The notes under the pieces are model-generated. The model did no database searches. It saw nothing but the letters and a program-made list of their open reading frames with translations, and had not been told where the DNA came from. Positions 8,601 through 38,200 of a stretch of 64,000 nt of DNA are shown in pieces; position 1 is the first letter of the stretch; every line of letters starts with the position of its first letter. This DNA comes from Arenicola marina (lineage: Eukaryota > Annelida > Polychaeta > Arenicolidae), in assembly GCA_964019135.1 (NCBI GenBank), contig OZ025248.1, positions 31,613,670 through 31,677,669 of the forward strand. Reading direction: 5' to 3'. A program made the position numbers and the translations under genes.

Positions 8601-11600
8601 ATATTGTGTGAACAATCTTTCAGAACCTATACATTTTAGTAATGACGCTCTTTGGGAGCCACCAAGTCACATCTTTTGGGCCTACATAATAGATAGATTA
8701 CGTTTTGGAAAGTCATGAAACCGATTGAAACAATATTTCATGTGGTATGTGAACGCACCCTGTCGACTCGCACGCTGGGTAGCACGGGGTATTTCATGTG
8801 TTAGAGGTCAGTGAACGCACCTTGTCGACTCGTACGCTGGGTAGCACGGGGTATTTCATGTGTTAGAGGTCAGTGAACGCACCCTGTCGACTCGCACGCT
8901 GGGTAGCACGGGGTATTTCATGTGTCAGGGGTCAGTGAACGCACCTTGTCGACTCGCACGCTGGGTAGCACGGGGTATTTCATGTGTTAGAGGTCAGTGA
9001 ACGTACCTTGTCGACTCGTACGCTGGGTAGCACGGGGTATTTCATGTGTCAGGGGTCAGTGAACGCACCTTGTCGACTCGTACGGTGGGTAGCACGGGGT
9101 ATTTCATGTGTCAGGGGTCTGTGAACGCACCTTGTCGACTCGCACGGTGGGTAGCACGGGGTATTTCATGTGCGAGTTTCCTCTGACTTCCGGGCTCCAG
9201 GCGTCGAAGCCGAATCGGCGTTCCCCGGTTTCCTTGTGGGTGGCCACGATGGTCGGGAAGAACACCTCGGGGAGGGCCGCTGCCATGGCAACCGGTGGAA
9301 GAAACACGTGGCGACGTTACATTTGCTATCAGTCCGGAGCATTCCATACAGACAATTACAGCGGTCGAAGAAATCATCTTACCAGAGAAATATAGTGAAC
9401 ACTTCAAGGATTTTTAATTGAATGTACATGTAGGAAATGCATTTTTCTAAATTAGGACTGGCTAACTATAACTCAGGCTGAACAAAATAAACATTTTATG
9501 ACGCAAAGAAAAAACCAGCACTGCACAGGATATAATAGACATATGTATCTATTTGTAACAATCAGTTGAGGTAACACTCACGTCTGTCTCCCAGAATTCC
9601 TGCTCGAACTGAACAACTCCCCAAGTCTATGACTACCACGCTCTGGAAATAAAAACATATCGTTGTTCACGAATGAAATAATTTTGAGCTTACCCTGGTA
9701 TATAAAAAAAGTTTAAGGTAACAATGAATGAATTAAACAATAAAATGGCATTCAGTCACTGAACAACACATACAATAGTACTGAAAGGTGACCATTAAAC
9801 TTCACCAGTCATATCCCGACAAGGTGGTAATGATAGATAGGTGTCATGTCTCCGGTCCTAACTTCAAAGGTGTGGATAGCCATCGAATATTTAACAATAG
9901 AGGCTGATATAGACAGGACATGGCACAGACACGTGTAGACGTCCCAGCGGACACCACGTGGTCTGCGGACACCAACCTTGTTGGGGTTGGTGAGCGCCCT
10001 CAGATCAGGCTTAATGTAGGTGGCGCGGATGTTGCCGACAGTCTGCGACTCGAGCGCCCTCTTCCAGTCGTTAAACTCCTGGTCGGTCGGGCAGCGAGTG
10101 ATCAGGTAATGTCCACGCTGCGACACACAGACAGACATATGGACATTGTTATATTGGTTGTCCACGCTGCGACACACAGACAGACATATGGACATTGTTA
10201 TATTGGTTGTCCACGCTGCGACACAGACAGACATATGGACATTGTTATATTGGTTGTCCACGCTGCGACACACAGACAGACATATGGACATTGTTATATT
10301 GATTGTCCACGCTGCGACACACAGACAGACATATGGACATTGTTATATTGATTGTCCATGCTGCGACACACAGACAGACATATGGAGATTGTTATATTGG
10401 TTGTCCACGCTGCGACACACAGACAGACATATGGAGATTGTTATATTGGTTGTCCACGCTGCGACACACTGACAGACATATGGACATTGTTATATTGGTT
10501 GTCCACGCTGCGACACACAGACAGACATATGGCCATTGTTATACAGGTCAACAGGTTAACGTCAGATAAATATCTCAATTGCACGACCTGTGACTTTCTT
10601 TAATATTGATGTGAGGTTTCGTGTTATTGCGTACATTAGTATTTTGGTCTTCGAAAAGTTGAAGACATCCCAATGTTTCCACACGTTATTATTTCTAATT
10701 CAGTATTAACTAACAAATTAAGCGTCCCCATCGATATCAGCGACTTTACTTCACCAGCCCCCAACCCCCACCCTGGCGTCTACCCCAAAGCGCACTATAA
10801 TGATGACAAGCTCGGACAGCTCCCCATCGGCGTCTACCTCAAACCCCACTCTAATGACAGGTTCTGACAGCCCCCTCCCCCACCACCACGGCGTCTACCC
10901 CAAACCCTACTTTAATGACAGATTCTGACTGCACCGCGGTATAGTACTCACCCCGACATCGACGCCCAGCATGCGGCTGCCCAGGTCCTCGATGACACCC
11001 CCCATCAGCTGGAAGACGGCGCTGGCCCGGTCATCGCCCCCCCCCCCTGCCCCGCGGTATAGTACTCACCCCGTCATCGACGCCCAGCATGCGGCTGCCC
11101 AGCTCCTCGATGACACCCCCCATCAGCTGGAAGACGGCGCTGGCCCGGTCATCGCCCCCACCCCCTGCCCCGTGGTACAGTACTCACCCCGTCATCGACG
11201 CCCAGCATGCGGCTGCCCAGCTCCTCGATGACACCCCCCATCAGCTGGAAGACGGCGCTGGCCCGGTCATCGCCCCCCCACCCTGCCCCGTGGTACAGTA
11301 CTCACCCCGTCATCGACGCCCAGCATGCGGCTGCCCAGCTCCTCGATGACACCCCCCATCAGCTGGAAGACGGCGCTGGCCCGGTCATCGCCCCCCCCCC
11401 CCTGCCCCGTGGTACAGTACTCACCCCGTCATCGACGCCCAGCATGCGGCTGCCCAGCTCCTCGATGACACCCCCCATCAGCTGGAAGACGGCGCTGGCC
11501 CGGTCATCGCCCCCCCCCCCCTGCCCCGTGGTACAGTACTCACCCCGTCATCGACGCCCAGCATGCGGCTGCCCAGCTCCTCGATGACACCCCCCATCAG

Positions 11601-14600
11601 CTGGAAGACGGCGCTGGCCCGGTCATCGCCCCCACCCCCTGCCCCGTGGTACAGTACTCACCCCGTCATCGACGCCCAGCACGCGGCTGCCCAACTCCTC
11701 GATGACACCCCCCATCAGCTGGAAGACGGCGCTGGCCCGGTCATCGCCCCCCCCCCTGCCCCGTGGTACAGTACTCACCCCGTCATCGACGCCCAGCATG
11801 CCGCTGCCCAGGTCCTCGGTGACACCCCCCATCAGCTGGAAGACGGCGCTGGCCCGGTCATCGCCCCCCCCCCCCCTGCCCCGTGGTACAGTACTCACCC
11901 CGTCATCGACGCCCAGCATGCGGCTGCCCAGCTCCTCGATGACACCCCCCATCAGCTGGAAGACGGCGCTGGCCCGGTCATCGCCCCCACCCCCTGCCCC
12001 GTGGTATAGTACTCACCCCGTCCTCGACGCCCAGCATGCGGCTGCCCAGGTCCTCGATGACACCCCCCATCAGCTGGAAGACGGCGCTGGCCCGGTCATC
12101 GCCCCCACCCCCTGCCCCGCGGTATAGTACTCACCCCGTCATCGACGCCCAGCATGCGGCTGCCCAGGTCCTCGATGACACCCCCCATCAGCTGGAAGAC
12201 GGCGCTGGCCCGGTCATCGCCCCCCCACCCTGCCCCGTGGTACAGTACTCACCCCGTCATCGACGCCCAGCATGCGGCTGCCCAGGTCCTCGGTGACACC
12301 CCCCATCAGCTGGAAGACGGCGCTGGCCCGGTCATCGCCCCCCCCCCCCTGCCCCGTGGTACAGTACTCACCCCGTCATCGACGCCCAGCATGCGGCTGC
12401 CCAGCTCCTCGGTGACACCCCCCATCAGCTGGAAGACGGCGCTGGCCCGGTCATCGCCCCCACCCCCTGCCCCATGGTACAGTACTCACCCCGTCATCGA
12501 CGCCCAGCATGCGGCTGCCCAGCTCCTCGATGACACCCCCCATCAGCTGGAAGACGGCGCTGGCCCGGTCATCGCCCCCACCCCCTGCCCCGTGGTACAG
12601 TACTCACCCCGTCATCGACGCCCAGCATGCGGCTGCCCAGGTCCTCGATGACACCCCCCATCAGCTGGAAGACGGCGCTGGCCCGGTCATCGCCCCGACC
12701 CCCTGCCCCGTGGTACAGTACTCACCCCGTCATCGACGCCCAGCATGCGGCTGCCCAGGTCCTCGATGACACCCCCCATCAGCTGGAAGACGGCGCTGGC
12801 CCGGTCATCGCCCTCGGCACTGCTCTGTGGGCACACACAAAGCCATGACGTCAGTCACAAACCACTGAGGACGTCACACACAGTGATGACGTCAGTCTCA
12901 AACCACGGAGGACGTCACACACGAGCTATGACGTCACACATAAATCACTGAGGCCGTCACACAAAATGAGGACTGGTTACTTTTAACGTGACACGCAACA
13001 TCGGATGCTGATGTCAAGCACAACATACTAATGACGTCACCGGGCTGACGTCAGACACTATAAGTGTTGACGTGGCACAGGACGGCGCCGGTTTCATTAC
13101 TTTACATATAGTTATCTTTCATAAAATAGTCGTTTCACGTCGAGATGGAATTGATCAAAATCGGCAGTTCATGAAATCACGGAGACATTTAATATTGACG
13201 GCGACATAAAGAAACTGAGAAACCAAGGAGGCTATAGTTCTTTCCATATGATAATATAGAAGCTGCCGAAGCCGTATGTTATTTTCCGTGCAACCATATT
13301 CCAAATGTGTGACCATTTCTATAGAAATAATGCAGAAAAAACGTTAAGTAATGCTATATAAAGTAAACTTTGTAAATTAAAATAAGGTGCCCAAAATGTA
13401 AAAAAAGAAATAAAGAAAAGAAGAAAAACTTGAAGAAAACAAAGCAATAACAGCACACAGCAGAAAGACAGACATGAAATGAAATAAAAACACTGAACAT
13501 ACACCAGTGACACGCGGATAAAACAACGAAAAAAATGTGCTAAAACTGTTTTCCTGGTTTCTCGATAAACTATTCTAAGTCTGACAAAATAGTGCGGGCC
13601 AAGTCGGGAATGGCCGATCCACGGTTGTGTGTGTATATGTCACGTTATGACGAATATCCGACATTACAATCATGGTGCAACAGCCGAGACCAACCAGGAA
13701 AGCTACCTTACGCGCTAAAAAATAATAACATTATTAAATACCAAAAATAGAATGAGTAGTAAAGACCATCAACCCGAGATACATCCTATTCAGTCCTGCT
13801 TGACCTGGCGACAATATTCCTGTGTTTAATCCCCATTTCGGAAGTCAAAACACTTTACAAAGTCTTGTTAATGAAGCTTTGCAAAGGATGGTTCCTAATC
13901 AAACACGAAGCAGTCGAAGTCGCAACTGTTTCTGCAGGACTGACTCACGGTTACCGTACTTAAGTATAACAAAAGTTAAAAACAAACAACGACATCTAGT
14001 GAGGAGCACACAAACTATTCCTCAGACGATACCTGGTATACGTCACTTCCGGTTGACGGGCCACCTGGCGATGTGTTCTGATAAACCATCCGGAGAGAAT
14101 GAATAGAAGGCCAACACTGAGTCAACGCTGAATCAGCCCGTGGTCAACAGAGTCAACTCATGGTCAATATTGAGTCAACTCATGGTCAATATTGAGTCAA
14201 CTCATGGTCAACATTGAGTCAACGCATGTTCAACAGTTAACTCATGGTCAACAGTCAACTCATGGTCAATACTGAGTCAACCCATGGTCAACACTGAGTC
14301 AACCCATGGTCAACACTGAGTCAACTCATGGTCAACATTGAGTCAACCCATGGTCAACTTATGGTCCACACTGAGTCAACTCATGGTCAACACTGAGTCA
14401 ACCCATGGTTAACACTGAGTCAACCCATGGTCAACTTATGGTCCACACTGAGTCAACTCATGGTCAACACTGAGTCAACTCATGGTCAACATTGAGTCAA
14501 CCAACCTATAGTGTCCTTGGGTTGTATATATATAACCAAACCTATTACTGAGGCATACCATTTCATATGTCTATCATACACATGTCTATCATACACAATA

Positions 14601-17600
14601 AAGGCCTACAGGGAAGGGTAAAAACAGATATATTATATGTTAACTACGTTTCAATGATGCGGAACATCACGGGGAACATGCTACGGCTGCCTGAATGAAA
14701 CCGTTTCAAGCGGCGCGACCCACACCGGCCATCCATTATGACGTCACAATGAGACCTGTGTCCCGTTGTGACGTAACGCACCTCGTAGTAGTAGAGGTTT
14801 CCCTCGCTGGCCCTGAAGTATCTTCTCTTCCAGGTTTTGAGCAGCGTGGCCTTCTTCTTGTTGGTGGGCAGCTTCTCCATGTAGCCCTCCATGTTGATGT
14901 AGGACGAGGCCTCCTCCGTCTGCAGCCACCGAACACCACCAAGACCCAGAGAATGATCACAGATAACACACAACATTGGCTACATTGGCTTACACATTAC
15001 ATTGACTACATTGGCTCACACATTACATTAGCAAATGCTCTCTCTAGCGCAAGGCGTCTTGCGTCCTTTTATGATCAGTAGCCGCGCATATGTATAAATC
15101 AACCAACTTCGGGGCAGACAGTGGACGAGATGGGAGCAGCTCATGTATAATGTGACATCATGAACTAATGCTTCAAAGACGTTACGATTGACTGAGTGTT
15201 TTCACATTTAAGTTATACAAAGATAAGAAAAAATGAGCAGCTGGAACACAGTAATGACTATTGCATGTTCGTCATATACAAGTACAACAAATACAACTTA
15301 GATATGGTTTAACCACTGGATCAAATACTAATATTTCGTAACTTATAACTAAATATAAGCAAATATGTTTATAATTAACAGGGCACGATACAGCCTTGTA
15401 GATACAGGAGTGTCGTTAAACCCCAATTGCATTAAATTATAATTAGCAGATTTGTAGAGTTGCACAAGACATGATCTTACATCAGTTTGCAGCTCTAGTC
15501 GATAGAGATCCTTCAACAGCAACGTCTGGAAAGTCGTAACGAAACATTATGACAGTAACTTCACAGTTAATCTAATAATTAAGGTCGTAAGCAAGAGGGA
15601 TTTGTATGTTTCCTAATTGCAAAATAAAATATGTCTAAACCAATTAAGATCTTAATCCTTCTGGAAAAATGGAGGCATTCATCACTTATGATAACACAGA
15701 CACATAAGCAGTGGAAGGCTATTGCCACGTTTCTTAAAGCGGCTCAGACAGTATTTTTGACATGAGAAACATTTAAAATGCGCTATAGGGTACAAAAACT
15801 AGAAAAAGAAAGATACTTTTAGATACATTTTCTGTCAGATTAGTACAGGTAGGTACACGGAAAACAGGCGTTCTTGTATCGTAAGCTGTCAAACTTTGGG
15901 CATTCCTTACGTCTGTTGCCACTTAAACTCAAGATGCTTACAGGATCCCAGCTCTTCAAGGTGACCTTGTCCTTGACCTTGTCCTCAGTCGTAAAGCCCT
16001 CGCTGCGACTAACTATGGGAGTCGTCGACGTAAAGGTGACATCATTCTTGCGCGGCAGCTCTGTGAGCCCATTGGATACCCCACTCGATGACGTCACGCC
16101 ATTTGAGGCGCTAGCAGTTACCCGAGAGCCATCTGCCGGACTACCGCCGCCCTGGTCTGAAAGATATATATACGAAAAAACCCATGACTAGCGTGATACT
16201 ACATTCTGGAGGATGCCCTAGTAAGGGAGTGTGGCACACAGTCACAGGAGCAGTGAGTTAATATCCTGGAATAGGCAAATCCATAGGCTTTTTGCCCAAA
16301 GAGCTGATGAGGCGCTGGTCAAGCACAAGGAAGGCAAGAGGCTCTTACCACCCTACATAAGACAACGGATCCATTACTATGTACAGGAAAGCTTGCCGAT
16401 GGTCATTGGATATGCCAGGCGTAATACTTCAATCTCAGAGAAGACCGAACCGAAAATAGTTGTGGACAGCAAGCTGAGCATTGGTACACGGTGAATACGA
16501 AGGCGATGTCTCCAGGGACGCCAGTGCCTGGGAGTCAACCAGCTCCTCATTGGTTTCCGTGGAGACGAGGGAAGTTTTGAAAAATTAATTATGTTTGCAC
16601 TGACTGATCAGTAAATGGTATAAATGCTATAACTATTTACAGTGGCATGACGTTAGCGGGGGAAAAACTGTTAAATACCTTCAACCACTAAGCACCACGG
16701 ACAAAAACAGCAGCGGTGAAAATCTCCAATACAATGGCGATAATAATACCAGTAACATACCACACAAGTCCAGGACCAGTTTCAGACAGGGGAAGAAGGG
16801 TGCAAGAAGGTGGATGGGGAAGAATTCTGGGTGTGAGCTCGGGTCAGTGAGTCCTAACCCCGTGCCCCAAGACATCACGCGAGCAGTACCTCCCCCATGC
16901 CCCAAGACATCATGCGAGCAGTACCTCCCCTATGCCCCAAGACTTCACGCGCGCAGTACCTCCCCTATGCCCCAAGACTTCACGCGCGCAGTACCTTCCC
17001 CATGCCCCAAGACTTCACGCGCGCAGTACCTCCCCTATGCCCCAAGACTTCACGCGCGCAGTACCTCCCCCATGCCCCAAGACTTCAAGCGCGCAGTACC
17101 TCCCCCATGCCCCAAGACTTCAAGCGCGCAGTACCTCCCCCATGCCCCAAGACTTCACGCGCGCAGTACCTCCCCCATGCCCCAAGACATCACGCGCGCA
17201 GTACCTCCCCTATGCCCCAAGACTTCACGCGCGCAGTACCTCCCCCATGCCCCAAGACTTCAAGCGCGCAGTACCTCCCCCATGCCCCAAGACTTCACGC
17301 GCGCAGTACCTCCTCCATGCCCCAAGACTTCAAGCGCGCAGTACCTCCCCCATCAGCCTCGTCCTCTGTCGCGGACCCAGCAGCTCCACGTCCCTGATCT
17401 CCGGTGGGCAGATCGACGGCCACGTGGCCGGTCTCGCCTTTCTCCTGGCGTCCCTTGGGGGTCAGCGGGCTGCCCATCTCTTCGGTGATGGGCGGGGCTT
17501 CCCGCACCCCGGCCAGCACGACCCTCCCCGTCCTCGTCCCCGCGGCGCCCTCCCCGAGACCCGGGCCGCCTGCACCCCCCGCCGGCCCCTTCCTCCTCGG

Positions 17601-18935
17601 CATCGGGGTGGATGGTTTGCCCCCCGCCGCTCGCTTCAGCAACGTGCCGAAGAAACCCTTCTTGGCCGGGCGGTGGAACTTGTAGACTGTGTCCCGCGTC
17701 TTCCCCTTATCAGCCCTGCCTCGTGTCTGCCGCTGCTGCTGCTGCTGCTGGTGGGGGTAGTGGTGCTGCTGTTGCCATGGATTCACCAGCTCGGCCTCCA
17801 TCCCGGGCAGGGCTCGCCTCGCCGCGGGAGTCCGGCATGACGGATCCGGGTCATCCAGACGAACCTGATTGGTGCAGCGGATCCCTGGATCTCGATCCGG
17901 AACCTTAGCGTCAGCCATCGAATGGCCCTCCTCGAGGTCCTCGCACGGCTCCCGACGCCTCTGCCCCTCGGCCATCAGCTCATCTAGCTCGGAGCAGCTA
18001 CGGGAGAACTCCTTGTAATTGGTGAACTTGACACGGATGCCTTTGCCGGGGGCGGGTCCCCCCAAACCACCCCCGGGCTTATTCGGCCCGGCCGCCGATT
18101 TACCGTTGACGTTGGCGCTTCCATGGTGCCCGGCGGCGGTGAATTTACTGTGGAGCTGCTGCTGGACAGCCTTGGATCTCTCCGACGCGCACTTGGCCTC
18201 GAATCGACTCCGGATGGTCTGTAGGCGCTGGGAGAAGACCGTCGTCCACCGGGGCTTGCTGACCCGCGAGCTGTCCTTGGACAGCACCCCGTCCTCATCC
18301 TCGCTCTCCCCCTCCTTCTGCAGGGCGTCCCCTTGCCCCTCCCCTGGCATCCCCGGGGTGACATCGCCGCTATCCTCTGGGTCCAACGACGATAGCGAAC
18401 GCCACTTCTTGAGGTGGTCGCCCTTGTCGGCCTTCTGGTGACCTTTACCCCACCACTTAGGCTTAGCGGTCGGCTTGGAGGCTGCGGAGGCGGCGCCCGC
18501 CCCGTGTCCGAACAGCGCGAACCGGCCCTGCACCTTCCCCTTGCCCTTGGGCTTGGTCGTCATGTGCTCGAAGGCCTTTATCTTAGCCTGGAAGGGCGAC
18601 TCTTCCCCGGGACCTCCGGCCGTGGCGCGATGGCCATCCCCACCACACGCCTTCTCCACGTCTTTAAACAGCTCCAGCTTTTCCTTCACGAGGGATTTCC
18701 CGCCGGAGATTCCCTCCGCATCTTCCCTCCGATCGCCATAAGAGAGTGCCGCCTGGTGCCCGCGACTACTCCCATCGCCTGGTTCCCCGTATGGCTCAAT
18801 GACGGCGCCATCTCGTGACGTGGCTGGGGACGAGAGAGACTTCCCATCGGAAACGGAAGTGACGTCTTCACGGGAGTCAAATAGCTGCCGGCGCCGCAGG
18901 ACAAATCCAGAAGTTTCGGGTGTCTCCTCGGCCAT
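5518..18935 (-). CDS. PH domain-actin-like fusion protein, 13 coding exons (gene model)
   Basis: Thirteen minus-strand exons, 17345-18935 down to 5518-5664, join in consistent phase across all 12 GT-AG introns to give 1,106 codons. Residues 1-602 are low-complexity and basic. Residues about 611-707 form a PH domain, from EGYMEKLPTNKKKATLLKTW to the closing helix EFNDWKRALES. Residues about 729-1106 match actin along its whole length: phosphate-1 loop IDLGSCSVRAGILGD, ANQTVLSLYS with the equivalent of Gln137, phosphate-2 loop VVDIGDRLEIVPVTDG, and adenosine motif LSGGATALPGF. The actin DNase loop is shortened and the His161 position is not histidine. The likely role is membrane phosphoinositide binding coupled to an actin-related module, but this is inference. 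The start ATG (gccATGG context) follows an in-frame stop at 18978-18980. I do not recognise this architecture as a named family. It may be joined to the exons upstream at 21.9-38.4 kb. Confidence 0.85.
5899..6145 (-). CDS. PH-actin gene, exon 12 (adenosine motif)
   Basis: The exon runs from acceptor ccattag to donor CAG|GTAAATC and encodes residues 976-1058. It holds FNAPEGLFNPDVWGMDNPSL, the counterpart of actin FRCPEALFQPSFLGME, and YLSGGATALPGFAEKL, the counterpart of VLSGGTTMYPGIADRM. This is the most strongly conserved part of the gene. Confidence 0.93.
6459..6574 (-). CDS. PH-actin gene, exon 11
   Basis: The exon runs from acceptor accctccag to donor TC|GTGAGT and encodes residues 938-975 plus two bases. 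MCFLAVDHEAACKRS matches the actin segment LCYVALDFEQEM, and YQIPAGSF matches the actin segment YELPDGQV. Confidence 0.88.
6967..7109 (-). CDS. PH-actin gene, exon 10
   Basis: The exon runs from acceptor gcccgcag to donor AAG|GTCCGT and encodes residues 890-937, starting by completing the Gly of the phosphate-2 loop (VTDG|YIVEGG). It corresponds to actin subdomain 4. The GG-R pattern of actin LAGRDLT appears as YGGHRVAEAF. Confidence 0.88.
7514..7706 (-). CDS. PH-actin gene, exon 9 (phosphate-2 loop)
   Basis: The exon runs from acceptor aactccag to donor GACG|GTCAGT and encodes residues 826-889 plus one base. It holds VMFSAPASLSDKFKEQF (actin LLTEAPLNPKANREKM), ANQTVLSLYS, in which the catalytic-type Gln is kept, and GIVVDIGDRLEIVPVTDG. 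The catalytic-type His of actin (THTVP) is missing and the loop is one residue shorter. Confidence 0.93.
7757..8017 (-). mobile_element. tRNA-derived SINE, copy 1 (intronic)
   Basis: On the minus strand this begins with a tRNA-like head: A box GATAGCACAGTGGGTTAGAG and B box GGTTCGAGCCA, about 60 bases apart. A conserved body follows (CCATGTCCTTCTTCGCAAAG, CCCCGGGGACGTGGCTCCGC), then the tail TTAAAGCGTCCTGAATATAC and an (AACC)n run. It lies inside the intron between exons 8 and 9. A close relative sits at 36434-36684. Confidence 0.8.
8429..8509 (-). CDS. PH-actin gene, exon 8
   Basis: The exon runs from acceptor ttgtttcag to donor TGG|GTAAGA and encodes residues 799-825. VMPDLMRKVFHELKVDPREH corresponds to actin [22 protein letters not shown], which helps fix the frame. 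Confidence 0.9.
8749..9130 (-). repeat. 62-bp minisatellite made of exon-7 donor junctions
   Basis: Six extra copies of a 62-bp unit follow the true exon 7 end without a gap. Each unit contains, on the minus strand, the last 40 or so exon bases (ACATGAAATACCCCGTGCTA and onward to GAGTCGACAAG) and the donor GTGCGTTCAC. The intron is 621 bases and the array fills about 60% of it. Reading through past the first donor meets a TGA within about ten codons. Confidence 0.9.
9131..9279 (-). CDS. PH-actin gene, exon 7 (actin subdomain 2)
   Basis: The exon runs from acceptor ccatggcag to donor AAG|GTGCGT and encodes residues 749-798. ALPEVFFPTIVATHKETGER matches actin RAVFPSIVGRPRHQG. The actin DNase-binding loop is replaced by a shorter segment. 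MKYPVLPTVRVDK resembles actin LKYPIEHGIVT. The 3' end is the seed of the adjoining 62-bp array. Confidence 0.9.
9582..9642 (-). CDS. PH-actin gene, exon 6 (phosphate-1 loop)
   Basis: This 61-base exon runs from acceptor tatttccag-like tttccag to donor C|GTGAGT. It encodes SVVVIDLGSCSVRAGILGDR (residues 729-748), the actin DNGSGMVKAGFAGD motif. It is short but certain because of the motif and the phase fit on both sides. Confidence 0.92.
9977..10117 (-). CDS. PH-actin gene, exon 5 (PH domain C-terminal half)
   Basis: The exon runs from acceptor tgtgtcgcag to donor AAG|GTTGGT and encodes residues 682-728. RGHYLITRCPTDQEFNDWKR gives the last PH strands and the C-terminal helix with its conserved Trp. 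A linker then leads to the actin-like part. The acceptor region is the seed of the neighbouring 49-bp array. Confidence 0.9.
10118..10545 (-). repeat. 49-bp minisatellite made of exon-5 acceptor junctions
   Basis: Counting the true junction there are nine copies of a 49-bp unit. On the minus strand each carries ATGTCTGTCTGTGTGTCGCAG followed by CGTGGAC, that is the polypyrimidine tract, the AG and the first seven exon bases. Every copy is therefore a potential acceptor. The real exon uses the copy nearest the coding sequence (cut at 10117/10118). Confidence 0.9.
10546..10934. other. Unique intron spacer between acceptor and donor arrays
   Basis: This is the only stretch of more than 300 bases in the 2.6-kb intron (10118-12725) that is not array. 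It is partly C-rich, with a weak repeat of cgtctaccccaaa near 10778, 10830 and 10890. No exon is seen. Confidence 0.5.
10935..12725 (-). repeat. 118-bp minisatellite made of exon-4 donor junctions
   Basis: Sixteen copies of the block containing CATCAGCTGGAAGACGG (plus-strand reading) are present, fifteen of them beyond the true exon. On the minus strand each copy repeats about 85 bases of exon 4 (DDRASAVFQLMGGVIEELGS) plus the donor GACGGG|GTGAGTACTG, followed by about 33 intron bases including a G-run of variable length. Copies alternate between GAGGAGCTG and GAGGACCTG at one codon. They lack the pyrimidine tract and cccacag acceptor of the real exon, so they look donor-competent but acceptor-poor. 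Confidence 0.92.
12726..12824 (-). CDS. PH-actin gene, exon 4 (PH domain loop)
   Basis: The exon runs from acceptor tgcccacag to donor GGG|GTGAGT and encodes the 33 residues 649-681, starting SSAEGDDRASAVFQLMGGVI. This is the copy of the 118-bp block that has a proper acceptor. The segment lies between PH strands and is probably a long loop or helix insertion. Confidence 0.85.
12844..13065. promoter_or_regulatory. Cluster of TGACGTCA (CRE-like) palindromes in an intron
   Basis: At least five tgacgtca words and several one-base variants (ggacgtcac, tgatgtca) lie within 220 bases, in a loose repeat of aaaccactgaggacgtcaca. This is the canonical CREB/ATF site, but the clustering could simply reflect the local tandem structure. 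No function can be claimed from sequence. Confidence 0.3.
13066..14100. other. Intron sequence, nothing recognised
   Basis: This is AT-rich sequence within the intron between exons 3 and 4. No splice-bounded open frame, element ends or structured repeat could be supported. Confidence 0.4.
14110..14505. repeat. About 22-bp minisatellite (gtcaactcatg type)
   Basis: Short units of the form actgagtcaacccatggtcaac repeat with many variants (attgagtcaactcatggtcaa). It is in the intron between exons 3 and 4, about 280 bases from exon 3. It contains no splice signal and no exon sequence, so it is a plain minisatellite. Confidence 0.85.
14782..14919 (-). CDS. PH-actin gene, exon 3 (PH domain N-terminal half)
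   Basis: The exon runs from acceptor gtggctgcag to donor GAG|GTGCGT and encodes residues 603-648. EGYMEKLPTNKKKATLLKTW, then KRRYFRASEGNLYYYE, is a textbook start of a PH domain: strand 1, a basic loop able to contact phosphoinositide, the KxWKRRYF strand and the next strand. Confidence 0.93.
15942..16156 (-). CDS. PH-actin gene, exon 2
   Basis: The exon runs from acceptor atctttcag to donor CCT|GTAAGC and encodes residues 531-602. It completes Asp from the exon 1 leftover G, then GGGSPADGSRVTASASNG and KVKDKVTLKSWDP. It is Ser/Thr-rich and probably disordered, ending just before the PH domain. Support comes from perfect phase on both sides. Confidence 0.8.
16860..17344 (-). repeat. 35-bp minisatellite made of exon-1 donor junctions
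   Basis: Thirteen extra copies of a 35-bp unit follow the true exon end directly. On the minus strand each contains CATGGGGGAG|GTACTGCGCG, repeating the last few exon bases (GATGGGGGAG) and the donor. Because 35 is not a multiple of three, using a later donor would change frame. The frame from exon 1 stops within two units. Confidence 0.88.
17345..18935 (-). CDS. PH-actin gene, exon 1 (start codon, low-complexity N-terminus)
   Basis: This 1,591-base exon encodes residues 1-530 from MAEETPETSGFVLRRRQLFD to EDEADGG, with donor GGAG|GTACTG in phase 1. Visible features are IKAFEHMTTKPKGKGK, NYKEFSRSCSELDELMAEG, a Gln/His-rich tract near residues 385-405, and the basic segment YKFHRPAKKGFFGTLLKRA. 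The frame is long, GC-rich and open on this strand, and its leftover G joins exon 2 cleanly. No named domain was recognised. Confidence 0.85.
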
Positions 18936-20446: not shown

Positions 20447-20509
20447 CTCTGTCAGCCCCGGGAGTGAACGGCGATGGTGACCGAGCGGAGCGGTACGAGA
20501 GCTCTCCGG
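20447..20509 (-). CDS. Candidate small exon (63 nt), gene assignment uncertain
   Basis: An isolated GC-rich patch reads GELSYRSARSPSPFTPGAD on the minus strand between acceptor-like catctttaag and donor-like GAG|GTCGGT. It is phase 1 in and phase 1 out. It could follow the phase-1 exon ending at 21906 or the candidate exon at 20893-21004. Support is only composition and phase. The plus strand is also open here. Confidence 0.3.
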
Positions 20510-26200: not shown

Positions 26201-29200
26201 GGGAGGGGGCGAGGGAAGGGGGTGGTGGTGGTTGGCGGGGTGTGGGGGTTGGTCAATCGGCACATCAAAGCGGACCACAACAACACCCACCTCTGCTACA
26301 GCGGAATCACCTCAGTGCATATCCCAGGACGAATAGCCATAGGTAATAAAATCCAACTCACGCCTGAACGGATAGCGCCTGTAGTAGTTCTATCAAACTT
26401 GGTGGCCAATGTACGGGGGTCGTGTGCGTCGAACAATCTCTCCTCACCGCAGGTGCTGTGTCGGTCCTCAGATATATGTAATATAGGTAAGTTATCCTCC
26501 ATACAGATGTGTAAGGTGTAAGGTTCACGGACCCTCGTGTACAGTTATAGCCAGCCAGCCAGTAAGTCCGCACAGGACAGGCGAAGCTCACCGGTAATGG
26601 TTACGCCGTCTCGCCCCCCTCTCCACCACACACACACTTGTTCAGCCAGCGTTCAACCCCCCCGCTCCTTCTTTCCATCGAGTATCTCTATTCATCAGCA
26701 GGGCTGGCTGGCTATCAGTCAGTCCACGGAGAGGCTGGGGGTGAGGGGGTAGAGGGGTAGGGAGAGCTGACCTTGTGGGCCGACTGGGACGCAGAAAAGG
26801 CGGTGGAGGTGGTGGGTGGGGGGAGGGGTAGTATGAGGGGTAGTGAGGGTAGTGGGGGGTGGGTGGTGGTGGGAGGGGTAGTATGTGGGGATAGTGAGGG
26901 GTGGTGGTGGGTAGACGGTACAAACCGCCATGGACGATGGCAACAAGGCCAAATACAGTGTGCAGCGCGTTACTGCACCGATCAACCTGCCCATGCCTAC
27001 CTTACCGACCTACCTACCTGAGAGTGAGTGAGTGCCCCAAGGCCTAAAGCGGGTAATGCCGTATGTATTTATACTCCGATGACTGCCTCAATCGTGCCGT
27101 GCTGGCTATGTAGCAGTTACACCGCCTTTATTTCACCTGCGGGCGGCACTGTCTCACGAAATGTACCGCCCACCTGTCCTCTACCCCCATCCCCACCCTC
27201 CTCCCCTGGCTACATGTCCACCCACCTTCACACTGAATCATTAACAACACCTTCTGTCCCCGTTACAATAGCGACGGCCTCCCACGCCCCCCTCTCCCCC
27301 CCGCCCCCTACTCGTTGGTCTGCCATGTCACCTTCATTCCCCTCGATCTCTTCCATATCTCAGTAACGCAGTACCTCGCTGATTGTCTCTCGATCCGCAC
27401 CTTGTCCTTGTGACCATCATCACCGTACCCCCCCCCCCCCCCTCATACTCCTCCACCCTCCTCAGTGTTCACCAGCTATCGACCATCTTCGTTTTGTCCC
27501 ATTTATTAGTGTGAATCGTCCTCAACATTGTAGTACAGTGTAACCATCATTTATTCGATTGTTATACTATAATATTACCCCCTGTCCTCTGTGTCTAAAC
27601 CAGCTTTTACTTTGGCCGTATAACCAAAACCATCATGTACTTTTACAGTATTTGGCCTGTCCCTGCCAGCTGCTCTCAATTAATAGAATAAAACCATTAG
27701 TTACTGTTATATTATTAACCCCTCCTCCACGGAGTTACCCTCCCTATCCCTGCCCCGACGTCTATTCCACCGCCCGGGCACTCACCTTGTGACGACCTCG
27801 CTCTCCCCGCTGTATCTGCCCGTGTATAGTCCTGTAAAGTCATGTACGTCCTTCCTCTCCACACACCTGCCACTGCCCGTATGCCGTCTCCCTGTGTCCC
27901 CGTCGCTTTCACACGCAAGGTCCTCTTCTCCCTATGACTGTGACCGACACCACCAGAGAGCCACCCCTCATAACGGTCACCCGCCTTTCATATAAATGAT
28001 AAACCTCCCAGTAACCCACCCCGAGCTATTACACCCCCAGATAACAGCCGGTGAACCGCCACTGACACAAGGCACTCTCCTCACACACACACCGCCCCAC
28101 CTCCTAATCCACCCTCCTCCCTCACCATGTCACCTTGATATCGTCACGACTGCCCCACCTGAGAGCGGCATCACCCCACGACCCCATATGCTGCGCCCCT
28201 GCCCCGCCCTGTCACCTTGATATCGCTGGAGGACTGCTGGCCTTACCTGAGAGAGTCATCACTGTCTAATATCACTTCCGACAACGGTGACTCACCTATA
28301 CGGCGGAAACGGAAAGGGACAAAGGGGGATACACGCGCACTGAGACCGGCGCACTACGCTGTGACCGGCCGGTGTGAAAGTCCCAAGCGACTCACGGGTC
28401 TCCATACGGATGGGAATATTAATACCGGTTTTGTTCGGTAGACGTTCAGCGCGCAGTGTCACCATGGCTACCCAAGCGAAACGACACGCGCGCGCGCCAC
28501 GTCATAGTGTAAAGCACATAACAACAGCTAGGCGGCACCGTGCTAGTCTGTATGTGGTGCAGAAATTACAAGTTCGTTGATGTAGTATAAAAATAGGGCT
28601 AGGAGAGCCCAGACCGCACCTTCCCCGTGAAAAAGATACCAGACAAAACTTGGTCATTTGTTATAACACAGACATCAGCCCAGACCGCACCTTCCCTGTG
28701 ATAAAGATACCAGACAAAACTTGGTCATTTATTACAACACAGACATCAGCCCAGACTGCACCTTCCCTGTGATAAAGATATCAGACAAAACTGGGTCATT
28801 TTGTAGAACACAGACATCAGCCCAGACCGCACCTTCCCTATGATAAAGATACCAGACAAAACTGGGTCATTTTGTATAAATACTGACCTCAGCCCAGACC
28901 GCACCTTCCCTGTGATAAGGATACCAGACAGAGCTGGGTCATTTTGTATAAATACTGACCTCAGCCCAGACCGCACCTTCCCTATGATACAGATACCAGA
29001 CAAAACTAGGTCATTTTGTATAAATACAGACATCAGCCCAGACCGCACCTTCCCTATGATAAAGATACCAGACAAAACTCAGGTCATTTTGTATAAATAC
29101 AGACACCAGCCCAGACCGCACCTTCCCTGTGATAAAGATACCAGACAAAACTAGGTCATTTTGTATAAATACAGACATCAGCCCAGACCGTAGATTCACT

Positions 29201-32200
29201 GTGGTAAAGACATTATGCAGATCTGGGACATTTGGTAGAAGTACATAACTTGGCCCATAAAAGACATATAATTATGTAATTTTGCATGTATAGACCAGTC
29301 CAGACAGCACCTTCCCTGATCAATTAATTGATAACAAAATTGCATCTGATATGAGTTCTACAGGGATTTCTTACATAAGCTACGCACACATACGGGGTTC
29401 TTCAACAACCTTGAGCCACACGTGATTTCTAACACCAAGTGATACAGGAACGTCAAGCGGTAGGATATCCATGGTAACCATTACAGTTAGTCATTAGCTA
29501 AGAGTCATCTGGCCATAGAAAACCTTTTTTTTTTATTTGCGAGTGCAACTACACACTTAACTGTCGGGGGCGCAGTCTAAGTTTTTCTGTTTTTACGGGG
29601 GCGGTGGGTGGGGAACCGGCATGACCTCTGATAACGGGGGAGGCATTCCACTGGGGCATACTGTTGGGGAGGGGGGGGGGGGGGGTACTGCGTCAAAAAT
29701 GCCCCCGCTTCTTATTGGATTCGCCTATATGACTGAACATATCACAACATACCGTTCAAGTTATTATATCGGAAAACATCTCGCACAGCCCCAAGAAACC
29801 ACATTTCTATAACAGTAAACAAAACAGAAATAACGCATTAATTTTCGCATGTTAATATTCGCACTTAACAGTTTATTAACTAAGTTTACCACACTATCGA
29901 AGGAACCAACAATTTCAGATCACTGAGAAGTAGTCATACAAGTATTGAACGTTTAAATTCAGCTATAAACCATGTTAATCCATGGCCCTCACTGGAATGA
30001 CTGATCGACTGGCCGTCCCGGACAGACATAATGCATTGTGTCCTCGCCTCAGTCACATATTTCTCACCGATCGGCGCCCACAGACGGCAGAGCATCAGAT
30101 GGTACACACGTGAGAATTAAATCGATAAGCCCCGGTAACCGCGGGAGGAAAAGGCGGCCTGGCCCCGCCTGGCTTCACTAAAATGTGTCCACGCGATTAA
30201 AGGCGTTTGGCGACACATCAGCCGCACTAACGCACAAACCCTGGCTGTGTCTGCCGCATAAGGTAATCGGGTCACACAAGGAGGGCAAAATGACCTGTGT
30301 TTTTTTTTTTTGGGGGGGGGGGGGGGGGGTCAGCGGCCGCCACAATAACTGGTTGATATGGCCATAGAATAAAAAATATTGGTACATTATATTTTGGTGT
30401 TAGTGGTGGTCGTAGTGGTAGTAGTATCAATAGTAACATAAGTAGATAGAACCGAGGTCGTAGTAGCAATTTAACAGTAGCAGTAGTAGTAGTAGCTGTA
30501 GTAATAACAGCAACAGTTGCAACATTAATTGTAGTGGCAGTATCAGTAGCATACACCAAGCCCTCTTTCGATGAGAGTACCAATGCTCGCACTTGGCTCC
30601 GTCCCCCTCCTCTGTTCTCCCAACAAGGCGTTTCCGGCCACCTTTGAGTACACAAAGGGAAACCAAGCCACTCATCCTGACGACGCAAAAGGCCTTAACG
30701 CCGCACAAGAAGTAGATAAAACACATAAGAAACTGTCGATATATACAGGTTATATATAAATATAGTCCACCACTGTCTTCCTTATCTCGTGGGGAGTCAG
30801 TTTTTGCGCCACCTCTTGAACCGGGCGATCAAACAATGCGATTTGTTTGACTGCGTTGACAAGTATGTCCCAGTGACGTCATCATAACAGTCGTATCGGC
30901 ACGGGGCCAGTCAGTCCAGTGTCACACAAAAACAACACGCGGAGGCAGAAGCCAACATGGCGAGATGAAAGACCCGGGACATGACCAGAGCCCTGGCGCA
31001 AGTGTTAACCTGGCTCTGGGCTAAACTCCACGCAGCTGCGAAGGGGGTGGGCTGATCGGTGGAGAGTGGGGGTGTGGGGTGGGTTGGGGGGGGGGAGGGG
31101 AGCGGCGCGTGCTAGCCCTTGGCGCAGTGTAAGGGGGAGCTGTGAAGGTAGAGGTGTCAAAAGGAGGTTCAGGGGTCGTGGTCGAAGTACCGTCAACGTA
31201 ATAGCCAAAAGCAATGGACATTGTAACTGTAACTTTGACTAGCAAGAACAAGAATGGTAATAATTGATATAGAGGGCGTTTACTATAGACTACATGCTTG
31301 GGAAATAATTCACTATATAGCGTCATGTGAGAAAGTATCCGATCGCATTCTGTCTCTGATCTTCTGAATATCGGGATCTCTCGCAAAGAGTATGCGTACG
31401 CATCATTGCAGTTTGAATACAATGCTTTATTTCGCAAAGTGTTTGCATATATATCAGACCAGAATGACATTCATTGAATCAGATGTTTCAGGCCGTTGGG
31501 TACACATAAGGGCTAAACGAGCCAAGGAATCTCCCGGGGCGACGAACGGGGAATGGAGGAAACATGCCTAAGATCAGGTGCCATCGTCCGGGATTCGAAC
31601 CCACGACCGTCTGTCGTAAAGAACAACGGTATTCATGCACATCAGACCAGTTTTTATTAACACAGCCTTCGATCCGGTGGCCGGCTTTATATCCCTGCGA
31701 CTGTTCGCTGTTCGGTATTTTGTGTGTGATGTCGACCGCGGCTCGCTATCACGTCCGCGCGCGATGTAAATAAACCGCGCAGTTTTATGTTTAAATTGTT
31801 GTTTTACAGACTCTCAGAGACATAAAACGTATACGCATCATAATTTTGAGATACTTTTAGTCTTGATTCTAAAAAGTAAAAAATCTAAGATGGCTCATGT
31901 AAGTATATTGCTTTAAATAGCTTACCAGTTTTCAATAACGATTTCTCTCTGCCTCTAGTTCCCGTAAAGAACGCTCGCAAACTAAGACCAATTGTAATGG
32001 TATCAACATCTCGCAAAGAGCAGATTACACCTTTTTTGGGATTGAGTGACCTTCCTCTCATTTCTCAAAAAGAGTAGACCCATGCATATACGAGACACCA
32101 CAACTCGGCCAGCTGCCAAGACTCGCAGTATGACCTTCACACGCGTCCCATATCAAAGAATAGCAAACAATAAACCTGGGCTAACAGAGAGAGAGAACGA

Positions 32201-35200
32201 CTAACGACCAAACCATTGCCTCCGACATCACAGGTCACGTGTCATATAACTGGGACCTTGACTATGAGAGGACGATATTTAAAGAGTTCGACCTTGGCCC
32301 CTGGGCTAAGGTCGCCGGCGCATGGCGAGAAATGGCGCATGGCGCACGTGTTCCCAATCTGGCGCCAAGCTGTGTTCTCCATTTGATTTGAAACGGTGCG
32401 ATAAGCGTAAATGAAAAACACTTTTCTGTGTCGTTATTATAAAGTCAAATACCAATTTAGGGAAACCTGACCATAAATACGAGGCATTATTTCGTTATAA
32501 CAGCAGAGACGACGTTCCATCGCAAACATTCCATTTATATAACGTTGTACTATGAAATAATAACCTACAACCGAAATGGCGCCCCAGGCAGTCAGAGGTG
32601 ACCTGGCACCCCCATTAACCTGAGTGAAGCACTTCGTGTTTCTCGCCATCAGCATGGCCAGCCGTGTCTGGCACCCTACTAACCTGAGTGAAGCACTTCA
32701 TGTTTCTCGCCATCAGCATGGCCAGCCGTGTCTGGCACCCTACTAACCTGAGTGAAGCACTTCATGTTCCTCGCCATCAGCATGGCCAGTCTTGTCTTGG
32801 ACCTACTAACCTGAGTGAAGCACTTCATGTTCCTCGCCATCAGCATGGCCAGCCGTGTCTGGTACCCGCCACTAACCAGAGTGAAGCACTTCATGTTCCT
32901 CGCCATCAGCATGGCCAACCGTGTCTGGCACCTTACTAACCTGAGTGAAGCACTTCATGTTTCTCGCCATCAGCATGGCCAGCCGTGTCTGGCACCCTAC
33001 TAACCTGAGTGAAGCACTTCATGTTTCTCGCCATCAGCATGGCCAGCCGTGTCTGGCACCCTACTAACCTGAGTGAAGCACTTCATGTTCCTCGCCATCA
33101 GCATGGCCAACCGTGTCTGGCACCTTACTAACCTGAGTGAAGCACTTCATGTTCCTCGCCATCAGCATGGCCAACCGTGTCTGGCACCTTACTAACCTGA
33201 GTGAAGCACTTCATGTTCCTCGCCATCAGCATGGCCAGCCGTGTCTGGCACCTACTAACCTGAGTGAAGCACTTCATGTTCCTCGCCATCAGCATGGCCA
33301 ACCGTGTCTGGCACCTACTAACCTGAGTGAAGCACTTCATGTTCCTCGCCATCAGCATGGCCAGCCGTGTCTGGTACCCGCCACTAACCAGAGTGAAGCA
33401 CTTCATGTTTCTCGCCATCAGCATGGCCAGCCGTGTCTGGCACCCTACTAACCTGAGTGAAGCACTTCATGTTTCTCGCCATCAGCATGGCCAACCGTGT
33501 CTGGCACCTACTAACCTGAGTGAAGCACTTCATGTTCCTCGCCATCAGCATGGCCAGCCGTGTCTGGCACCTACTAACCTGAGTGAAGCACTTCATGTTC
33601 CTCGCCATCAGCATGGCCAACCGTGTCTGGCACCTACTAACCTGAGTGAAGCACTTCATGTTCCTCGCCATCAGCATGGCCAGCTGTGTCTGGTACCCGC
33701 CACTAACCTGAGTGAAGCACTTCGTGTTTCTCGCCATCAGCATGGCCAATCGTGTCTGGCACCCGCCACTTACCTGAGTGAAGCACTTCATGTTCCTCGC
33801 CATCAGCATGGCCAGCCGTGTCTGGCACCCGCCACTAACCTGAGTGAAGCACTTCATGTTCCTCGCCATCAGCATGGCCAACCGTGTCTGGCACCTTACT
33901 AACCTGAGTGAAGCACTTCATGTTCCTCGCCATCAGCATGGCCAGCCGTGTCTGGCACCCGCCACTAACCTGAGTGAAGCACTTCATGTTCCTCGCCATC
34001 AGCATGGCCAACCGTGTCTGGCACCTACTAACCTGAGTGAAGCACTTCATGTTCCTCGCCGTCAGCATGACCAGCCGTGTCTGGCACCTACTAACCTGAG
34101 TGAAGCACTTCATGTTCCTCGCCATCAGCATGACCAGCCGTGTCTGGCACCTACTAACCTGAGTGAAGCACTTCATGTTCCTCGCCATCAGCATGGCCAG
34201 CCGTGTCTGGCACCCGCCACTAACCTGAGTGAAGCACTTCATGTTCCTGGCCATCAGCATGGCCAACCGTGTCTGGCACCTACTAACCTGAGTGAAGCAC
34301 TTCATGTTCCTCGCCATCAGCATGGCCAGCCGTGTCTGGCACCCGCCACTAACCTGAGTGAAGCACTTCATGTTCCTCGCCATCAGCATGGCCAATCGTG
34401 TCTGGCACCCGCCACTAACCTGAGTGAAGCACTTCATGTTCCTCGCCATCAGCATGGCCAATCGTGTCTGGCACCCGCCACTAACCTGAGTGAAGCACTT
34501 CATGTTCCTGGCCATCAGCATGGCCAGCTGTGTCTGGCACCCGCCACTAACCTGAGTGAAGCACTTCGTGTTTCTCGCCATCAGCATGGCCAGCCGTGTC
34601 TGGCACCTACTAACCTGAGTGAAGCACTTCATGTTCCTCGCCATCAGCATGGCCAGCCGTGTCTGGCACCTACTAACCTGAGTGAAGCACTTCATGTTCC
34701 TCGCCATCAGCATGGCCAGCCGTGTCTGGTACCCGCCACTAACCTGAGTGAAGCACTTCATGTTCCTCGCCATCAGCATGGCCAACCGTGTCTGGCACCT
34801 ACTAACCTGAGTGAAGCACTTCATGTTCCTCGCCATCAGCATGGCCAGCTGTGTCTGGTACCCGCCACTAACCTGAGTGAAGCACTTCGTGTTTCTCGCC
34901 ATCAGCATGGCCAATCGTGTCTGGCACCCGCCACTAACCTGAGTGAAGCACTTCATGTTCCTCGCCATCAGCATGGCCAGCCGTGTCTGGCACCCGCCAC
35001 TAACCTGAGTGAAGCACTTCATGTTCCTCGCCATCAGCATGGCCAACCGTGTCTGGCACCTTACTAACCTGAGTGAAGCACTTCATGTTCCTCGCCATCA
35101 GCATGGCCAGCCGTGTCTGGCACCCGCCACTAACCTGAGTGAAGCACTTCATGTTCCTCGCCATCAGCATGGCCAACCGTGTCTGGCACCTACTAACCTG

Positions 35201-38200
35201 AGTGAAGCACTTCATGTTCCTCGCCGTCAGCATGACCAGCCGTGTCTGGCACCTACTAACCTGAGTGAAGCACTTCATGTTCCTCGCCATCAGCATGACC
35301 AGCCGTGTCTGGCACCTACTAACCTGAGTGAAGCACTTCATGTTCCTCGCCATCAGCATGGCCAGCCGTGTCTGGCACCCGCCACTAACCTGAGTGAAGC
35401 ACTTCATGTTCCTGGCCATCAGCATGGCCAACCGCGTCTGGCACCTACTAACCTGAGTGAAGCACTTCATGTTCCTCGCCATCAGCATGGCCAGCCGTGT
35501 CTGGCACCCGCCACTAACCTGAGTGAAGCACTTCATGTTCCTCGCCATCAGCATGGCCAATCGTGTCTGGCACCCGCCACTAACCTGAGTGAAGCACTTC
35601 ATGTTCCTCGCCATCAGCATGGCCAATCGTGTCTGGCACCCGCCACTAACCTGAGTGAAGCACTTCATGTTCCTGGCCATCAGCATGGCCAGCTGTGTCT
35701 GGCACCCGCCACTAACCTGAGTGAAGCACTTCGTGTTTCTCGCCATCAGCATGGCCAGCCGTGTCTGGCACCTACTAACCTGAGTGAAGCACTTCATGTT
35801 CCTCGCCATCAGCATGGCCAGCCGTGTCTGGCACCTACTAACCTGAGTGAAGCACTTCATGTTCCTCGCCATCAGCATGGCCAGCCGTGTCTGGTACCCG
35901 CCACTAACCTGAGTGAAGCACTTCATGTTCCTCGCCATCAGCATGGCCAATCGTGTCTGGCACCCGCCACTAACCTGAGTGAAGCACTTCATGTTCCTGG
36001 CCATCAGCATGGCCAGTCTTGTCTGACACTGCATCATCTGCTGGGAAAGCTCATCGGGGGTAGGGATGCCGTGTTGGAGCTGGCCCCCGAGGGTGTCGAA
36101 CCGCCGCTGTTCCTCTGCCATGGCGCGCTGCAGGTCGGCCACAGTGATAAGCAACCCCTGGGTGTGGAGAAACACCAGCAGCGGGCTAGACAAGAGTTAC
36201 ACCATCTTAGAATGTGTTCCATTTACTCCCGGCTTGGATTCGTGCTTTAGGTCACCTATGGGCACACACTGGCTAGGAAAGGCCAGGGAACCTTCTGAGA
36301 CTAGGGGATTAGTTATATGCCAAACAGTCCATAATCGGATGCCGAGTCTGATAATCGACGGTCGAAACAGAGTCTGAAACTCAGTACGGCACCAACCGAG
36401 CTATGTAGGTCGTAGTATTACCAACTTGGGCATGGTCGTTGGGTGTATATTCAAGACGCTTTAACCAATTTTTGTCTTAGCGCGTCAATGGGAAGGCAAA
36501 AGCGGAGCCATGTCCCCGGGGTGACCCCCTACTCTTTGCGAATAAGGACATGGGATCTTTATCCTACGACCAAACAGACATGACCACAGCGGGGCTAGAA
36601 CCACCGAGCCACGTGGCGTTAGGCTCTCAGATGGCCAGAGCCCTCAATGCGAGCGATCTAACCCACTGAGCTATCGGGGCGGCCCTAAAATTGGGCATGA
36701 ACTGATATACATGTATACCGAAAATACGCCGAGCGGCAAAATTATAGAGAAGGATCATATACCAGAATGAATAAATAATAAGTATAAGTATATATGCTTT
36801 ATACAACAGCTTAAACCATCCGGCTTATAACGAGTCAATGACATTATTATAACTAAACATCAAGCTTTTTTAAATCTTTTAAACTAAAACTCGCAAATTT
36901 TTATTTCACCTGTGATCTCGTTCACCAAACATTTGTAAGGTAGTTTACTATAATTACACAAATATTGGTTGCTGGAACCTTGAAAGAGAAATAAATAGTA
37001 AACCGGGTTCAACGGACAAAATCGGAGCGAACGATGTCCAAAGCCCATTCTTTACAAAAGAGGATATGTAACTGCGCTATTTAGCCTTGTTAAGAGTGCA
37101 GTGAATGACGCACAATATATTCAGAGATTACACACACACTACTCTGAATGTAATAAAGCATATACGGTGGTATCAAGACGATACCGATAAGACTTTATGC
37201 GAAGACTCATTACTGATAAGTCATGGTGAGTTAGTGTTATTGACAGATCAGTGAGATTAACGTTTCATTTGGTGATTAAGACTACATAGCGTGAGTGGTA
37301 AACAGTCGTATACAACCAACTCCGCTATCGCGCTGGTTGTTTACAACTTCAAGGACAAATTGGGTTAAGAAGCTCCCCGGGGACAATGACAGGTGTATAG
37401 GTAAAACATGCCCCAGCGGCAGATGTCAGGGCGCGAACCCGTGACCCGTGACTCTGCCGCTCAGCCCGTTCACAAACCGAGGCTAGCGTAGGGAGACGCC
37501 CCAATGCCTGGTGGTAACGTACTGCTGTGGGTCGCACTGCCGCAGTATGAGGCCAATCATAACGTGCTCTAGCAGTGTAGTGAATAACGAGCTGCGAAAC
37601 CTCAGTACAGTTTACCCCTATATAAAGGGTAATGCACAAGTGGTATACTTAAGGTTATCAGGGGTGTAACCAGTCGGTACAGTTATAGGGCAGAGTGCGG
37701 TTTCAAGGTTGACAAAGATTAACACGATAAAACACGGTCGCACTTGGGATTAATCTTTCTGATGGTTCAGTTGCGTGCCAAAAGTCACTCGATGTACGAT
37801 AGTTGTATTAACCATCACAAGCATATTTACCATCGGGTCACAATTTATAATGGCTATATAGAAGTCGTCGTGAAGCTGCTCTTCCATATCACGGCGATCC
37901 AATGAGTGGCATATTTTTTTCTGGCATTTCCCTCTGTTCCATCTATTCAACATTCCATCATAGCCGCAAGCTTGTTCCTCACGATTAACGCCAAAAGTGA
38001 GAAAGGTGACTAGAGAAAGTATGATTTGGAAAAGTTTAACTGAGAAAGTCCGGGAAACCTAAATGAGAATGTCCATCTGGAAAAGTTACTGAGAATGTCC
38101 ATCTGGAAAAGTTACTGAGAAAATAACTGGGAAAGTTACAGAGAATGTCTCTCTGGGAACTTGAGAGGGAAAGCCTAATGGGGAAAACCTGAATGGGAAA

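Follow-up and report, generated by a model that had tools for sequence, protein, structure and literature searches.

The gene for a PH-domain and actin-like protein (PH-actin) of the polychaete Arenicola marina, which lies on the minus strand of the 64,000-nucleotide stretch analysed here (contig OZ025248.1, positions 31,613,670 to 31,677,669; hereafter the window), carries five minisatellites whose units are tandem copies of the gene's own exon-intron boundaries. Minisatellites made of exon/intron boundaries are known from amphioxus as "mirages", according to the available part of the report (PMC3087553). Based on the window and on a sample of exon edges elsewhere in the same genome, we propose that the arrays are mirage-type minisatellites in a minisatellite-rich genome, which are probably seeded preferentially at 5' splice junctions and tolerated as they grow into the intron.

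All five arrays named in the initial annotation are recovered by Tandem Repeats Finder (TRF), four at donors and one at an acceptor, and the exon edges assigned to them, as well as the repetition of the edge in every unit, are borne out by TRF, the gene model and the copies of the junctions. The arrays are as follows.

8749..9172, minus strand: array 1, donor; 62-bp unit of 42 bp exon end and 20 bp intron, about 7 copies (TRF, 62 bp x 6.8); junction at exon end 9131, AAG/GTGCGT.
10110..10543, minus strand: array 2, acceptor; 49-bp unit of 41 bp intron end and 8 bp exon start, about 9 copies (TRF, 49 bp x 8.9); junction at exon start 10117, GTCGCAG/CGTGGACA.
10929..12813, minus strand: array 3, donor; 118-bp unit of 88 bp exon and 30 bp intron, about 16 copies (TRF, 118 bp x 15.9); junction at exon end 12726, GGG/GTGAGT.
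16858..17353, minus strand: array 4, donor; 35-bp unit of 9 bp exon and 26 bp intron, about 14 copies (TRF, 35 bp x 14.2); junction at exon end 17345, GAG/GTACTG, a weak site.
32603..36029, minus strand: array 5, donor; 63-66 bp unit of about 52-55 bp exon end plus the donor, about 53 copies (TRF, 66 bp x 53.1); junction at exon end 35975, CAG/GTTAGT.

The arrays do not begin exactly at the exon edge, as had been stated, but extend 42, 8, 88, 9 and 55 bp into the exon (arrays 1 to 5), in each case less than one unit, the remainder being intronic. When splice sites scoring at least 4 bits were sought within the arrays and 60 bp around them, copies of the junction made up 7 of 7 sites in array 1, 9 of 10 in array 2, 16 of 26 in array 3 and 53 of 58 in array 5, while in array 4, whose junction scores 3.6 bits, just one copy passes the cut-off. 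No aligned copy departs from the GT (or AG).

To judge chance overlap, 17 arrays hand-picked from the TRF rows with at least five copies were placed at random against the 43 coding junctions of the window. With the limit that at most one unit of exon lies inside the array, five junction arrays are observed in the window against 0.80 expected (P=0.0006; 0.82 and P=0.0004 when an omitted qualifying TRF row, 38167-38238, is added), and five of the eight arrays of the PH-actin gene lie at junctions against 0.48 expected, an outcome reached in 0 of 20,000 trials. Plain overlap with no exon limit is not unusual, 4.2 being expected in the window (P=0.41; 4.2 and P=0.42 with the added row) and 2.6 in the gene (P=0.065). 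The test is post hoc, as the window had been flagged for its junction arrays. In the neighbouring PPP4R2 gene, which serves as a control, none of the 12 coding junctions carries an array.

Junctions were also sampled elsewhere in the genome (867 Mb, 762 contigs), which was searched with Pfam profiles for the myosin head (77 exon matches) and for Cpn60/TCP1 (CCT; 49 matches). We tested 84 of the 126 matches (39 of the 77 for myosin, 45 of the 49 for CCT), of which 79 had sequence context, and after 5 donor and 12 acceptor edges had been dropped for a short flank or for want of a confident site, 74 donors and 67 acceptors were usable. An edge was scored as carrying an array when the 18-mer across it (8 exon and 10 intron bases) recurred at least twice, with at most 3 mismatches, within the adjoining 600 bp of intron; control positions, located 60-800 bp away in the same intronic flanks, were counted if they were the first copy of such a repeat. 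The sample covers one assembly and a few genes with edges inferred from profiles and splice scores, and its long stretches (L068-L075) were picked after the first loci had been seen.

The uncurated script count gave arrays at 11 of 74 donors against 202 of 10,880 control positions (1.9%), and at 3 of 67 acceptors against 241 of 9,559 (2.5%). Two of these donors (C8:22405017 and C4:2728577) and one acceptor (C17:26069812) were rejected because a copy inside the array had been mistaken for the exon edge. The strict count is 9 of 74 donors, still well above the control rate (p=9.9e-6), and 2 of 67 acceptors, which is at background (p=0.5). As control positions within one array are not independent, we bootstrapped over 24 clusters, defined by contig and megabase as a proxy for genes, and obtained a donor ratio of 6.4 (95% interval 2.8 to 11.6; P(ratio<=1)=0.0016). 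The initial annotation had named seeding of a mutational process at splice junctions as one of two possible causes and had proposed an enrichment check at exon edges; that check, run in part on the myosin and CCT sample, supports an excess at donors and not at acceptors. With the dropped cases included, the fraction of positions that are first copies is 10-11% between positions -20 and +40 relative to the donor and has dropped to about 1.5% at +120; near acceptors it reaches 4-6.5% against a background near 3%.

By TRF, 60 loci alone show arrays at 7 of 56 donors and at none of 52 acceptors, three more edge overlaps having been set aside in which the array reached more than one unit past the called edge; the CCT loci account for 3 against 0.48 expected, which is above expectation. 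In a kinesin replicate, ten donors were taken in table order with the arrays not looked at, skipping small contigs, stop-containing matches and matches ending at the profile end; two of the ten carry arrays, and the pooled strict count becomes 11 of 84 (p=1.3e-6). Cases seen by eye include a myosin exon ending ...LLEK/GTAGGC with 62-bp units x 25 (L015), a CCT exon ending ...TTSVIILG/GTAAGT with units of about 29-35 bp x 40 (L060), ...NNAIEDG/GTACGT with 57-bp units (L051), 82-bp units in L042, and a kinesin exon ending ...GKTG/GTAGGG with units of about 73 bp (L080). Genome-wide there are 11,485 matches to the spaced triple AGGTGAGT, compared with 3,578 for the reversed motif; the measure is rough, as matches overlap inside arrays.

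In a comparison of composition that retains the dropped cases, donors that carry arrays are followed by sequence richer in G, the fraction of G in intron bases 7-66 being 0.35 with an array and 0.22 without (p=0.003), and the GC content there is also higher. Among donors with GC of at least 0.55, 13 of 33 carry arrays compared to 3.4% of GC-rich intronic control positions, where the 13 of 33 includes the window and retains the dropped cases. The splice motif alone has no such effect: donor-like GT sites off exons, inside introns, showed no enrichment (1 of 83, on a 5-base grid). The exon share of 15 units spreads from 0.26 to 0.83, and a uniform spread is not rejected (p=0.14). As the exon share ranges so widely, the breakpoints are not fixed relative to the junction, which would fit a lesion or stall near the junction that is repaired with variable arms.

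We propose that a short stretch across an exon-intron junction would be tandemly duplicated, whereupon the copy nearest the exon would stay coding and the other copies would land in the intron. There they could multiply by unequal exchange or slippage, so that the array would grow only into the intron, and the exon-proximal site would presumably be the one spliced, with the others as decoys. Seeding would be several times more frequent at donors than at other intronic positions, chiefly where the sequence is rich in GC and G, and may be caused by a lesion or stall linked to the transcribed 5' splice junction. Tolerance alone cannot lift the rate at junctions above the intronic background.

Several points weigh against this proposal. 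The sample is small and clustered, the 9 donor cases falling in 6 of the 24 clusters; the donor p value rises to 0.001 when set against the GC-rich intronic control rate, and the contrast between donors and acceptors has p=0.06 for the genome sample alone, or p=0.018 once the window is added. Myosin alone, by TRF, gives 4 against 2.6 expected, which is not significant, and the kinesin control rate is itself high (38 of 772). Part of the GC richness on the intron side is the array itself, and the identity of the spliced copy is predicted from the intact reading frame with the exon-proximal site.

As to what the seeding process might be, we tentatively consider a mutation coupled to transcription or splicing that tandemly duplicates transcribed 5' splice junctions and whose origins in amphioxus and in this spiralian would be independent; the trigger could, for example, be R-loops or stalls at donors that lead into a G-rich intron start. 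If this were true, gene structure would shape where minisatellites are born.

It is less probable, and in our view unlikely, that these are ordinary minisatellites in an array-rich genome, the junction arrays being the share that spanned an edge by chance and was tolerated, with no special seeding. Of the intronic flanks sampled, arrays already occupy 29.5% for myosin and 14.4% for CCT, plain overlap in the window is unremarkable once the one-unit limit is lifted (P=0.41), acceptors are at background, and the copies have accumulated changes at their splice bases much as they have elsewhere in the unit, all of which speaks for it. What this explanation leaves unaccounted for is the rate of first copies at donors, which is several-fold above the intronic rate and also above the GC-rich rate, as tolerance could only reduce the rate at junctions.

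That selection favours the copies, for example extra donors serving as U1 platforms that help to define exons or prevent premature polyadenylation within long introns, is in our judgement improbable. The donor bias and the retention of good donors in most copies of arrays 1, 3 and 5 would suit it. In a hand count over the four donor arrays, however, variable columns made up 6 of 36 splice-site positions (-3..+6) and 37 of 242 others, and array-bearing donors are no different in strength from those without arrays (p=0.2), that is, they are not weaker. Nor does cyclic alignment reveal a consistent difference in conservation between the exon-derived and intron-derived parts of the copies: exon parts are less variable in arrays 1, 3 and 5 (p=0.38, 0.049 and 0.45), and array 4 shows the opposite (p=0.055). 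Among the variable exon columns of array 5 a hand count found no third-position excess. A roughly 5-fold lower variability of the exon-derived parts, obtained at one stage, came from wrong unit cuts and gaps and was gone with cyclic alignment. With variation at the splice bases of the copies about equal to that elsewhere in the unit, there is no sign of selection for redundant sites. As its other possible cause, the initial annotation had offered redundant sites being tolerated or favoured; tolerance of the extra copies is supported, and their being favoured by selection is not.

Least probable of all is that the arrays are relics of intron birth, in which tandem duplication of an exonic AG/GT stretch created an intron that later expanded into an array, as the accessible texts propose for amphioxus globins (PMC3087553) and some human paralogues (PMC2812944), for the arrays fill just part of their introns and the same unit is predicted at both ends, whereas intron 12725-10118, the one with an array at either end (arrays 2 and 3), has units of 49 bp and 118 bp.

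The host gene was modelled from open frames, GT-AG rules and homology, so that its exon edges are predictions; all introns in the model are GT-AG.

5518..38389, minus strand: PH-domain and actin-like protein gene; open frame across all junctions, Pfam and homology support.
38389-38303, 36157-35975, 23250-21906, minus strand: coding exons, 5' part.
18935-17345, minus strand: putative alternative first exon, with its own ATG and matching phase.
16156-15942, 15525-15481, 14919-14782, 12824-12726, 10117-9977, minus strand: coding exons, middle part.
9642-9582, 9279-9131, 8509-8429, 7745-7514, 7109-6967, minus strand: coding exons, following.
6574-6459, 6145-5899, 5664-5518, minus strand: last coding exons.

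A first model held 13 exons on the minus strand with the frame intact, the 45-bp exon 15525-15481 being added later, and the product has PH and Actin domains (Pfam). The region had been taken for two neighbouring genes. A single Lingula protein matches both exon 36157 (E 1e-9) and the PH-actin exons, and a Potamilus protein matches exon 36157 (E 3e-6) and, in a database search, the PH-actin part (48% identity over 95%); as the same proteins match both parts, the upstream exons and the PH-actin exons belong to one gene. Exon 18935-17345 shares its end phase with exon 23250-21906, which makes it a putative alternative first exon. Among the best 120 of 135 homologues the closest named ones belong to Lingula and Owenia (52%), followed by those of molluscs and nemerteans, with hemichordates and echinoderms ranking lower; none of these 120 rows bears an amphioxus name, many being nameless and no direct amphioxus test having been made. 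In a 33-row tree the window protein joins four other proteins (100/98) inside the spiralian rows (100/98), away from the hemichordate and echinoderm rows.

Three more arrays of the window are candidate further members.

40653..41602, minus strand: 50-bp unit with a strong donor, GAG/GTATGT, on the gene strand only.
42786..44597, minus strand: 49-bp unit in which the gene strand carries both a donor-like and an acceptor-like site.
28606..29210, minus strand: 72-bp unit with an acceptor, CACAG, and a donor, AAG/GTGCGG, 5 bp apart on the gene strand.

The donor of the first scores 8.6 bits (p=0.04 against random stretches; 1.2 bits on the plus strand), and this array lies upstream of a likely acceptor of the 5' untranslated region (5'UTR) at 38433. 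In the second the donor scores 6.0 bits (p=0.12) and the acceptor 7.8 bits (p=0.06), with 1.8 and 0.2 bits on the plus strand; in the third each site scores 8.1 bits (p=0.08 each), with 1.5 and 4.3 bits on the plus strand. On these scores, which are only suggestive, the three arrays may mark unannotated 5'UTR or alternative exons of the PH-actin gene.

The rest of the window holds the control gene and further repeats.

51106..57063, plus strand: PPP4R2 gene, 7 coding exons and 12 coding junctions, with homologues found.
57163-57865: minisatellite with a 31-bp unit in about 23 copies, which begins about 100 bp past the PPP4R2 stop and has no strong splice-like site.
60904-62622, minus strand: 573-codon open frame built mostly from 126-bp units repeated in frame (DTDGDGIPDWLDDDDDNDGIPDAED...); this coding minisatellite resembles thrombospondin type 3 calcium-binding repeats.
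7800-8010 and 36450-36690: a dispersed repeat resembling a short interspersed element, in two copies with long stretches in common (by eye).

Some observations concern the sampled genes themselves. In one CCT gene stretch (C17:26057001-26067000, L070) 72% of the 10 kb is tandem array, including 140 copies of 36 bp. Upstream of the CCT exon at C17:26069812 (L057) an array joins the intron end to a piece of exon with about 30 bp of exon missing between them, its unit resembling an internally deleted copy of the junction. A myosin heavy chain gene (C4:367768-384767) has repeated matches to the same profile segments (several each to ~110-154 and ~590-640), the pattern that mutually exclusive exons would give. 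The kinesin matches on small contigs C390, C504 and C536 lie in long intronless stretches with in-frame TAA and TAG, which suggests that these are contaminant contigs from an organism reading TAA/TAG as amino acids, e.g. a ciliate.

If the donor excess holds genome-wide, the birth of minisatellites would not be blind to gene structure and the 5' splice junction would be a mutational hotspot. Mirages would then be recurrent in animals rather than an oddity of amphioxus, and the arrays would offer many natural tests of how the spliceosome chooses among dozens of near-identical sites, as well as a setting to test whether arrays ever become new introns or exons.

The initial annotation knew of no named system of this kind, and yet mirages have been published for amphioxus: the available part of one report cites Adh3 and other loci, states that mirages seem not to disturb regular splicing and proposes a model of intron gain from those of the globins (PMC3087553), while that of another adds PGBD5 and mentions troponin C (PMC3902484). 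The amphioxus loci named there are Adh3, the globins BflGb6 and BflGb9, troponin C and PGBD5, with units of tens to ~160 bp that hold the last or first exon bases together with the splice site. Here too the unit contains the exon-intron boundary, both boundary types occur (4 donors and 1 acceptor in the window, 9 and 2 in the genome sample), and arrays of this type recur across several unrelated genes (PH-actin, myosin, CCT and kinesin) of the genome. Unlike those of amphioxus, the arrays described here reach up to ~53 copies in the window, are over-represented at donors but not at the splice motif by itself, and reside in a spiralian rather than a cephalochordate, which we treat as a matter of host range and not of structure. 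Regular splicing and instability of length, between haplotypes and in the soma, are described for the amphioxus mirages in the parts of those reports available; the arrays of A. marina are known from the sequence of one assembly. The human IFI6/G1P3 (6-16) minisatellite reportedly supplies multiple splice donor sites (Turri et al. 1995). Its repeats carry donors, as do ours, at one human locus there and in many genes here, where the copies would be decoys. In human segmentally duplicated genes De Grassi and Ciccarelli (2009) described minisatellite-type repeats, some of which lie at exon-intron boundaries; they average about four 30-bp units and were proposed as a source of new introns. These came from comparison of paralogues, and the accessible text holds no junction enrichment of the present kind (PMC2812944). 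Intron gain at AG/GT proto-splice sites, in the portion of the source available, likewise begins with duplication across a splice-like site (PMC3087553), but no intron here has the same unit at both ends. Our literature search, whose coverage excluded most subscription journals, found no published report of boundary arrays in a spiralian and no earlier report of a donor excess. With a donor excess that we did not find reported earlier, the finding files as mirage-type arrays in a new animal group.

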